Below, one piece after another: positions 33,511 through 35,706 of a stretch of DNA of 64,000 nucleotides. Source of the stretch: Rhodopseudomonas sp. P2A-2r. GTDB lineage: Bacteria > Pseudomonadota > Alphaproteobacteria > Rhizobiales > Xanthobacteraceae. The DNA lies in the NCBI RefSeq assembly GCF_026015985.1, contig NZ_CP110389.1, forward strand, positions 4,186,001-4,250,000, written 5' to 3'. Position numbers and translations under genes: made by a program. The notes below the pieces were generated by a model, which made no database searches, had not been told where the DNA came from, and saw only the letters and a list, made by a program, of their open reading frames with translations. Each line of letters starts with the position of its first letter. Within the stretch, counting starts at the first letter, position 1.

Positions 33511-35130
33511 TCACGCCTTCTTCTTCACGTCTTTGATATCCGAGAACACTATGCCTTCGGCGCGTTCGCGGGTGTAGTTCAGGTAGAACTCGTTCTTGGC
33601 CAGGAACACCGGATCGCCGTCCACGTCGTCGGCGACGCCCGACGAGTTGTTGCTGACGAACGTATCGAGCTTCTTGCGGTCGTCGGATGAAATCCAGCGC
33701 GCCAGCGAGAATTCGGAAATCTCGAAGTCCACCGGCAACTGATACTCAGCCTGCAATCGCGCCTTCAGCACGTCGAGCTGCAGCATGCCGACCACGCCGA
33801 CCAGGGCCGGCGCGCCGTCGCGCGGGCGGAACACCTGTACCACGCCCTCTTCCGACATCTGCTGCAAGGCTTCTTTCAGCTTCTTGGCTTTCATGGCGTC
33901 GGTGAGCCGGACGCGACGGACGATTTCCGGCGCGAACGAGGGCACGCCGACGAAGGTGAGATCCTCGCCCTCGGTCAGGGTGTCGCCGATCCGCAAGGTA
34001 CCGTGGTTGGGAATGCCGACCACGTCGCCGGCAAAGGCCTCGTCGGCCAGCGCGCGATCCTGCGCGAAGAAGAACTGCGGGCTCGACAGCGACATGTTCT
34101 TGCCGGTGCGCACCAGCTTGGCCTTCATGCCGCGGGTCAGCTTGCCCGAGCAGAGACGTGCAAAGGCGATGCGGTCGCGGTGGTTCGGATCCATGTTGGC
34201 CTGGATCTTGAAAACGAAGGCCGACATGGCGGGCTCGCTGGCTTCCACCTTGCGCAGGTTGGAATCCTGCGCGCGCGGCGGCGGCGCGAACTTGCCGAGG
34301 CCTTCCAGGAGATCGCCGACGCCGAAGTTGCGGAGCGCCGAGCCGAAATACACCGGCGTCATGTGGCCTTCGCGGAAGGATTCGAGATCGAACGCCTTGC
34401 CGGCTTCCTTGACCAGCGACAGTTCCTCGAGGGTCTCGGAGACGTCGAGATTGGGATGGCGCGCGGCGAGGTCGGCCACCGCAATATTCTCCGCCGCACC
34501 GGTCTTGGCGCCGCCGCCTTCCAGCAGGCGGATGCCGCCGGTGGAAATGTCGTAGGTGCCGAGGAAGTCGCGGCCGCGGCCGACCGGCCAGGTCATCGGC
34601 GTGGTGTCGAGCGCCAGCGTCTTCTCGATCTCGTCGAGCAGGTCGAAGGTGTCGCGGCTCTCGCGGTCCATCTTGTTGATGAAGGTGATGATCGGAATGT
34701 CGCGCAGACGGCAGACCTCGATCAGCTTCAGGGTGCGCGCCTCGATGCCCTTGGCGGCGTCGATCACCATGACCGCGGAATCGACCGCCGTCAGGGTCCG
34801 GTAAGTGTCTTCGGAGAAGTCCTCGTGGCCCGGCGTGTCCAGCAGGTTGAACACCAGGTTGTTGAACTCGAAGGTCATCACCGAGGTGACCACGGAGATG
34901 CCGCGGTCGCGTTCGATCTTCATCCAGTCGGACCGGGTCGAGCGGCGCTCGCCCTTGGCGCGGACCTGGCCGGCCAGGTTGATGGCGCCGCCGAACAGCA
35001 GCAGCTTTTCCGTCAGCGTGGTCTTGCCGGCGTCAGGATGGGAGATGATCGCGAAGGTGCGGCGTCGGGCCACTTCCATGGCGAGCTGGGCGCGCGCGGG
35101 CGATTCGGCAGTGAGGGCAATGTCGGACAT
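33511..35130 (-). CDS. prfC: peptide chain release factor 3
   Basis: GTPase that recycles RF1/RF2 from terminated ribosomes. The start at 35130 ([16 protein letters not shown]) gives 539 residues; an upstream in-frame start would add an unrelated leader. G motifs: [23 protein letters not shown] and NKMD. RF3-specific sequence includes [20 protein letters not shown] (20 residues) in switch I. Normal length and no lesion. It diverges from the SMR exporter and its riboswitch. Confidence 0.97.
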
Positions 35131-35226
35131 GGAGTTGCCTGTGGCAGGGAAAGCGGGCGCAATCAAGGGAAAATGCGGGAAAACGGCCGGGTTGCGCGCA
35201 ACGGCGCTGGCCCTCATATAGGCCGG

Positions 35227-35284
35227 GGAAGGACGACCTTCCATTCCTTCATGCGCAGGACGGCCTGCTTGTTCCGGAGGCCGT
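35227..35284 (+). promoter_or_regulatory. guanidine-II (mini-ykkC) riboswitch
   Basis: Two perfect hairpins precede the exporter: GGAAGG-ACGA-CCTTCC (35227-35242) and GCAGG-ACGG-CCTGC (35255-35268), separated by 12 bases. Tandem hairpins with ACGR loops define the guanidine-II riboswitch, which controls guanidine exporters. The ribosome binding site GGAGG is at 35276-35280. ACGGCCT in hairpin two (35260-35266) is exactly complementary to AGGCCGT (35278-35284), which covers part of the Shine-Dalgarno region. Inference: without guanidine this pairing blocks initiation; ligand binding to the loops stabilises the hairpins and frees the site. Confidence 0.9.
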
Positions 35285-35285
35285 C

Positions 35286-35600
35286 ATGGCGTGGTTTCTA
35301 CTGTTGATTGCCGGGTTGCTCGAGGTCGGCTGGGCCGTCGGGCTGAAATACACCGAGGGCTTTACCAGGCTGATCCCCTCGGTGCTGACCCTAACGAGCA
35401 TGACCGCGTCGGTCGGCATGCTGGCGCTGGCGCTGAAAACCCTGCCCATGGGAACCGCCTATGCGGTGTGGACCGGGATCGGCGCTGTCGGCACCGCAAT
35501 CCTCGGCATCGTGCTGTTCGGCGATCCCTCGAGTTTCGCCCGGATCGCCTGCATCGGGCTGATCGTCGCCGGCATCGTCGGCCTCAAGCTGGTGAGCTGA
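35286..35600 (+). CDS. gdx: SMR family guanidinium exporter (Gdx/SugE type)
   Basis: Four-helix small multidrug resistance protein of 104 residues. The conserved membrane glutamate is Glu13 in [15 protein letters not shown], and the Gdx/SugE signature [19 protein letters not shown] lies in helix 3. This subtype exports guanidinium in exchange for protons. The riboswitch directly upstream supports that function independently of the sequence. Formerly annotated sugE. Confidence 0.95.
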
Positions 35601-35608
35601 ACGCTGGA

Positions 35609-35700
35609 TTGTAGGATGGGTAGAGCGCAGCGAAACCCATCAGCAGAAGTTGATGGGTTTCGCTCCGGCGCTTCGCGCCTCCGCTCTACCCATCCTACAA
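35609..35700. repeat. 92-bp inverted repeat between gdx and pit
   Basis: Outer arms TTGTAGGATGGGTAGAGCG and CGCTCTACCCATCCTACAA are perfect 19-bp complements; inner arms GCGAAACCCATCA and TGATGGGTTTCGC extend the stem. The sequence resembles a palindromic intergenic repeat widespread in Proteobacteria. It lies between convergent genes and may also terminate transcription, with AAAAA following. Confidence 0.88.
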
Positions 35701-35706
35701 AAAGCC

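Follow-up and report, generated by a model that had tools for sequence, protein, structure and literature searches.

A guanidine-II riboswitch ahead of a Gdx-type exporter gene and its P2 hairpin as a candidate anti-Shine-Dalgarno strand

Guanidine-II switches are among the smallest riboswitches, and the portions of the literature available to us differ on the route that leads from the kissing of their two loops to the ribosome-binding site: it may run through the linker, through a P0 helix or through the P2 stem. For Escherichia coli, the available excerpts place the strand that pairs with the Shine-Dalgarno sequence (the anti-SD) in the linker (PMC9300104, PMC9094411), and an anti-SD is drawn in the figure legend of PMC7544219. 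For Pseudomonas aeruginosa, a switch reported as thermodynamic, the excerpt of PMC9561414 describes a P0 helix made of the 5' and 3' flanks, and mutating four cytosines of this putative P0 locked the switch ON. In Gloeobacter violaceus, according to the part of Huang 2017 at hand, a stem that overlaps both P2 and the ribosome site is possible and would be mutually exclusive with the aptamer (PMC5486947), and the excerpt of a 2024 review has the ribosome site incorporated in the apo aptamer and freed by the ligand (PMC10907184). The further guanidine-II literature examined, of which our coverage is partial, leaves the anti-SD strand unnamed, and earlier statements of a P2 model are possible.

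Here we describe a guanidine-II leader in a window of 64 kb (the window being the whole stretch of DNA that was analysed, 64,000 nucleotides), whose features are collected in Table 1. One loop purine and one base flanking the Shine-Dalgarno sequence (SD) of this leader could help to discriminate between the anti-SD models, and comparative tests favour P2 in many genera, with contrary results that are given below.

Table 1. Positions of the leader, promoter-like and coding features in the window
Feature	Position	Strand	Remarks
Putative -35 element TTGCGC	35192..35197	+	read by eye
Putative -10 element CATATA	35215..35220	+	17 nt past the -35 element; P1 starts 7 nt further
P1 hairpin GGAAGG-ACGA-CCTTCC	35227..35242	+	6 bp, perfect stem, ACGA loop; guanidine-binding by class membership
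Linker	35243..35254	+	12 nt between P1 and P2
P2 hairpin GCAGG-ACGG-CCTGC	35255..35268	+	5 bp, perfect stem, ACGG loop; guanidine-binding by class membership
Candidate anti-SD strand GACGGCCU	35259..35266	+	last base of the P2 5' arm, entire P2 loop, 3 bases of the P2 3' arm
Shine-Dalgarno GGAGG	35276..35280	+	5 nt ahead of ATG (35286)
Complement AGGCCGUC	35278..35285	+	complementary to P2 loop and 3' arm; overlaps the SD
gdx/sugE-type SMR exporter gene	35286..35600	+	104 aa; NF008512 and PF00893

The initial annotation of this DNA had recognized two perfect hairpins with ACGA and ACGG loops, 12 bases apart, and had assigned them to the guanidine-II class. Both stems and the linker are present as described, and the covariance-model search that it had proposed as a check agrees with the assignment, only narrowly above the cut-off: family RF01068 (Guanidine-II) of Rfam covers 35225-35268 (+) with 33.8 bits against a gathering threshold of 32, and its alignment leaves 4 model positions unfilled. 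This match has an E-value of 0.0051 when the 64 kb are searched and of 4.8e-5 in a 601-nt stretch; Guanidine-II is the sole Rfam family above cut-off in the window, and a single RF01068 match was found across the whole genome. Two ACGR-capped hairpins stand together with an SMR/SugE start codon 17 nt past P2. The linker misses the usual length of 13 nt or more, which is usual and not required, as the great majority of guanidine-II linkers, not all of them, reach it according to the accessible part of PMC5486947. Among dinucleotide shuffles (n=200 each), 3/200 fold as stably as 35227-35268, 1/200 as 35227-35285 and 0/200 as 35227-35306.

The same annotation had named a Gdx/SugE-type gene downstream, and the protein confirms it, matching the SugE equivalog NF008512 with 155.4 bits (cut-off 126) and PF00893 as well. 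Its best solved relative by sequence is PDB 6wk5, which we take to be Gdx-Clo, a guanidinium exporter. The available part of PMC9574504 bears out the name Gdx-Clo for this structure and gives a central Glu, a W16/S42/W62 stack and Y59 as the guanidinium-binding residues of Gdx. The window's exporter is identical to Gdx-Clo at 57/103 residues and keeps E13, W16, S42, Y59 and W62, that is, all residues characteristic of the Gdx subtype, of which the central Glu and the Tyr are common to other SMR subtypes as well. Because of the Rfam match, the SugE/Gdx gene type and the Gdx-Clo relative, the element is almost certainly a genuine, ordinary guanidine-II (mini-ykkC) riboswitch ahead of a Gdx exporter, with guanidine binding predicted from its class.

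Since a promoter-like pair of elements lies 7 nt before P1 and the motif CATAT recurs in the host family (at most 50 nt upstream of P1 in 32/38 SMR leaders of five host-family genera and in 42/68 of all host-family SMR leaders), transcription probably begins at the aptamer, with a start at or beside P1. A sigma-70 consensus scan gave no site. Just before P1, AGGCCG at 35220-35225 is a second copy of the sequence complementary to P2 at the SD; in a transcript that included it, it would compete with P2. It overlaps the putative -10 element and is probably absent from the RNA. The divergent gene upstream of the riboswitch is prfC (release factor 3), whose frame at 33511-35244 (-) is open to an ATG at 35244 and would overlap the riboswitch on the opposite strand. 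A prfC start at 35130 seems likelier than one at 35244, because the matches to release-factor profiles begin at residue 15-17 of the 35130 version.

Directly 3' of gdx lies a 90-nt long inverted repeat (TGTAGGATGGGTAGAGC ... GCTCTACCCATCCTACA) at 35608-35702. It looks REP- or MITE-like, because the genome holds scattered relatives of it (22 matches, several of them being the two strands of one place), and it could serve as the end of the gdx transcript. A scan for intrinsic terminators yielded no convincing candidate, the one match (35276-35299) spanning the SD and the start codon with 3 G-C pairs. Names of miRNA families that Rfam returned around 35420-35700 were rejected as far under their cut-offs, most of them sitting on the long inverted repeat.

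Within the leader, P2 is complementary to the SD region. The initial annotation had read ACGGCCT (35260-35266) as fully complementary to AGGCCGT (35278-35284), which we confirm, and an additional pair G35259-C35285 lengthens the helix to 8 bp. GACGGCCU and AGGCCGUC are thereby joined by 8 Watson-Crick pairs, the SD side running from the AGG of the SD to the last base before the start codon. The duplex energy is -14.5 kcal/mol when just the 8 bp are counted and -18.4 kcal/mol for longer segments. When the SD core is kept fixed, flanks that pair as well with the P2 arm arise by chance in 79/20000 shuffles of the native flanks and in 10/20000 random flanks of 62% G+C. The mutual exclusion of binding and blocking that had been claimed also holds, as the whole P2 loop is used in the SD-blocking helix; the loop is shared by aptamer and SD helix, and thus the same bases would serve either ligand binding or repression.

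The folding model places the P2-SD helix in the minimum-free-energy structures of both 35227-35285 and 35227-35306. For a transcript growing from 35227, it predicts that the two-hairpin form stays lowest in energy up to 35276, that the linker pairs with the SD at 35280 and that the P2-SD helix prevails from 35284 on. With the transcript end at 35306, the free ensemble has -36.1 kcal/mol and the aptamer-forced one -26.7 kcal/mol, and for ends from 35289 to 35346 the OFF fold is predicted to be more stable than the aptamer fold by about 6 to 11 kcal/mol. This gap is large for an equilibrium switch and may reflect either model error, the missing kissing and ligand energies, or kinetic control. 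In this model, which is free of ligand and kissing energies, the window's SD is not released when P1 and P2 are forced (0.91 paired when forced vs 0.81 free), and its partners under the forced aptamer are mainly the linker (0.25-0.58 for ends from 35285 on) and the early coding sequence.

We propose, with a probability of roughly 0.6, that the leader acts as a translational ON switch for the Gdx-type exporter in which P2 is the main anti-SD. Transcription would probably begin at P1, and P1 and P2 would fold before other structures. In the presence of guanidine, both ACGR loops would bind the ligand and kiss, so that P2 would stay closed and the SD free. When guanidine is absent, P2 would open, and its loop and 3' arm (35259-35266) would pair with 35278-35285 and block the ribosome. 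The support for P2 as the anti-SD in the window is moderate. The initial annotation had offered its switching model as an inference from complementarity, and this model now gains comparative support from flank shuffles, loop-purine covariation, structural ensembles and riboswitch-less controls; cross-genus swaps, counts of contiguous helices and the forced aptamer speak against it.

The comparison draws on whole-genome searches in which RF01068 matched 90/198 genomes of a family draw, 75/297 of an order draw, 84/398 of a phylum draw and 39/385 of a class draw, these draws being overlapping sets. From 275 fetched loci, 262 were parsed, and the 13 that the hairpin finder left unparsed enter no count. 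SMR-type genes, assigned from their first residues (M, then A/P/S/T/C/E, then W/Y) and not by profile, follow 143 of the parsed loci; 124 of these have P2 at most 35 nt from the start, and the 122 distinct ones represent 53 genera and 27 families. Four genomes each carry a pair of guanidine-II matches on one strand, spaced by about 0.8-1.0 kb (L203/L221 in G155, L096/L240 in G189, L111/L242 in G180, and L117 with a second, unfetched match in G393), which suggests operons with one switch ahead of each of two genes. The linker of several non-SMR leaders of the host family (L084, L086-L088, L091) reads AGGAGCATGA or GGGAGCATGA, with an ATG whose frame continues through P2 and, in L084, coincides with that of the main gene. 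This ATG may have no significance, because GGAG is only 1 nt from it; a leader peptide was dropped as an explanation, an SD-like start occurring in the linker in only 4/119 non-SMR leaders.

Across the 122 distinct SMR leaders, with the SD core fixed and the flanks shuffled, the P2-SD duplex is stabler than its shuffles in 39/53 genera (p=3.6e-6) and, within the host family, in 11/13 (p=0.0081). P2 thus pairs beyond the SD core and above flank shuffles, as P2-type sequestration would predict. P1, whose sequence is nearly the same, gives a weaker version of the P2 signal (34/53 genera, p=0.0017). Family means lie below the shuffles in 19/27 families for P2 (p=0.00016) and for P1 (p=0.0011), and pairing the two by family gives p=0.081. 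A repeat that included the 5' flank found 41/53 genera for P2 and 29/53 for the 5' flank (p=0.81); by family, the P2 excess appears in 11/13 genera of the host family and 6/6 of f92, and there is none in the 13 leaders of f87 (1/3 genera). The 99 non-SMR leaders carry no P2-SD signal in the same test (24/55 genera, p=0.37). In full structural ensembles, the mean SD share held by P2 is 0.31 for native and 0.13 for shuffled leaders (p=0.0019), being higher in only 29/53 genera, and that of P1 is 0.03 native vs 0.02 shuffled (higher in 9/53 genera).

The purine of the P2 loop varies (62 A and 60 G among the 122 loci), and we found that it tends to covary with the SD flank. In an energy-based flip test, the natural purine pairs with its own SD flank better than the alternative in 75 loci, worse in 45 and equally in 2. 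Label permutation, a statistic that is not tree-based, gives a median p of 0.005 with one locus per genus, 0.030 for the 13 genera of the host family and 0.120 per family (27); the P1 purine as control gives 0.765, 0.833 and 0.415, respectively. Exceptions occur, for example in L243, where an ACGA loop faces GGGCCGC. The flip test replaced a count, by register, of the partners facing the loop purine, which was abandoned for its mixed registers and non-purine matches no better than swapped ones.

A third line of evidence comes from gdx genes that lack the riboswitch. Among 80 related gdx loci, 49 carry two hairpins by pattern; the other 31, together with L064, a doubtful pattern match, were scanned with Rfam, whereupon 4/32 (L036, L064, L068, L079) reached the cut-off and the remaining 28 formed the control set. 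Control loci with an SD (26/28) have a mean best-of-two excess of -1.10 kcal/mol, with 14/26 below zero. After trimming, which removed five loci whose match does not begin at a start codon and the five in which degenerate hairpins are visible (L003, L005, L021, L033, L052), the 17 with an SD have a mean of -0.33 kcal/mol, with 10 below zero. The 52 mini-ykkC gdx loci, comprising the 49 pattern-positive ones and L036, L068 and L079 (an earlier run used 46/49, without L010, L012 and L064), reach a mean of -5.03 kcal/mol with 43 below zero (p=2e-4 vs either control version). The strongest values in the control set belong to three degenerate-hairpin loci, L021, L033 and L052. By eye, the leaders of all five such loci show degenerate ACGR hairpins below the Rfam cut-off, and these three retain the P2 complement at the SD; the five are possibly decaying or diverged switches.

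The complementarity itself, like the sequence and the Rfam match, is shown here together with its comparative enrichment and covariation, and several results run contrary to the proposed role of P2. Native P2-SD pairs show no significant advantage over cross-genus swaps, whether across the 53 genera (p=0.52), the 27 families (p=0.26) or the host family (6/13 genera, p=1), and the covariation claim therefore rests on the loop purine. Contiguous helices with the SD, counted with G-U allowed and at least 3 SD bases covered, reach 8 bp or more in the host family in 14/56 leaders for P1, 9/56 for P2 and 2/56 for the linker; in other families, 6 bp or more are reached in 1/66 for P2, 8/66 for P1 and 11/66 for the linker. 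Contiguous P2-SD helices are thus few outside the host family, and the P2 excess there must therefore rest on interrupted or short pairing. Neither these counts nor the native-versus-swapped duplexes tell P2 apart from either P1 or shared motifs. In the folding model, forcing the aptamer alters the mean SD pairing little (0.82 to 0.73 in the host family, 0.74 to 0.69 in f87 and 0.70 to 0.78 in f92).

Among the alternatives, the linker as anti-SD survives best, although we consider it unlikely. The linker segment CCUUC (35246-35250) would pair with GGAGG (35276-35280) around a closed P2 in the OFF state, and kissing would withdraw it. This weak second candidate for SD blocking, with 5 pairs including one G-U, had gone unmentioned in the initial annotation, and it is the type of pairing favoured by the E. 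coli papers in the parts available to us (PMC9300104, PMC9094411). The ON-locking mutations that back a P0 flank helix in P. aeruginosa count against P2 and argue for the linker as well, two of the four mutated bases lying in the linker by our reading of the numbering in the excerpt of PMC9561414. In the window, a linker-SD helix is the lowest-energy fold of the transcript ending at 35280, and the linker is one of the main holders of the SD when both hairpins are forced; outside the host family, moreover, its contiguous helices outnumber those of P2. Against this stand a far weaker duplex in the window (-6.1 vs -18.4 kcal/mol) and comparative results in the opposite direction: the linker-SD duplex is stabler than shuffles in just 12/53 genera (p=0.001), the mean SD share of the linker in full ensembles is 0.12 native vs 0.22 shuffled (p=4.6e-5; higher in 9/53 genera), and linker-SD pairing falls below cross-genus swaps (p=0.015). 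For the chromosomal sugE leader of E. coli itself (L357), the folding model gives the SD, according to the stretch folded, a pairing share of 0.47-0.62 with the P2 3' arm and of no more than 0.02 with the linker, and duplexes of -7.9 kcal/mol for P2 vs -3.5 kcal/mol for the linker. This result is not decisive, because the predicted minimum is the aptamer form, in which the SD pairs downstream, once 15 nt of 5' flank and 40 nt of coding sequence are included.

Somewhat less probable again is a kinetic switch that would use both strands in turn, in which the linker helix would block the emerging SD and the P2 helix would then lock the OFF state; the ligand would therefore have to act within a short transcriptional window. 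The order of minimum-free-energy structures as the transcript lengthens and the big energy gap once 35285 has been made point in this direction, both of them outputs of the folding model, whereas the available part of PMC9561414 reports the P. aeruginosa switch as thermodynamic. Least probable of all is that the aptamer is real and the P2-SD complementarity a roleless by-product of having a G-rich SD close to a C-rich arm, for although swapped leaders pair almost equally well, P1 gives a similar, weaker signal and the SD is not released under a forced aptamer in the folding model, P2-SD pairing exceeds shuffles that keep the SD, the loop purine covaries with the SD flank, P1 serving as negative control, and the signal is much weaker at riboswitch-less gdx genes.

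P2 as the main anti-SD, the reading that we prefer for the window, may extend further. We tentatively suggest, at less than even odds, that in many gdx-linked guanidine-II switches, perhaps including that of E. coli, P2 is the anti-SD, that complementarity to the SD region is maintained in its loop and 3' arm and the linker is prevented from pairing with the SD, and that the loop purine and the SD flank coevolve. If true, this would revise the linker model of current papers and would make guanidine-II a direct-competition switch, one set of loop bases serving either to bind the ligand or to block the ribosome.

The window's riboswitch is an additional member of the known guanidine-II class. 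It shares with RF01068 the two ACGR-loop hairpins, the short linker and the SugE/Gdx SMR gene downstream, and differs from it in a linker of 12 nt and in the 4 unfilled model positions. Its exporter resembles Gdx-Clo in sequence identity (57/103) and in the retained residues E13, W16, S42, Y59 and W62, and guanidinium transport is predicted for it. A P2/SD switch is, in the literature available to us, already suggested for one species, G. violaceus, and departs from the linker model of several papers. In the excerpt of PMC5486947, an aptamer-exclusive stem over P2 and the ribosome site is suggested as it is here, there for one sequence and here with comparative and covariation evidence across genera. 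Like the E. coli and P. aeruginosa switches, which the excerpts describe as translational ON switches for SMR exporters, the window's leader is expected to turn translation on; unlike them, with an anti-SD placed in the linker and in the flanking P0, respectively, it has its strongest anti-SD in P2 itself.
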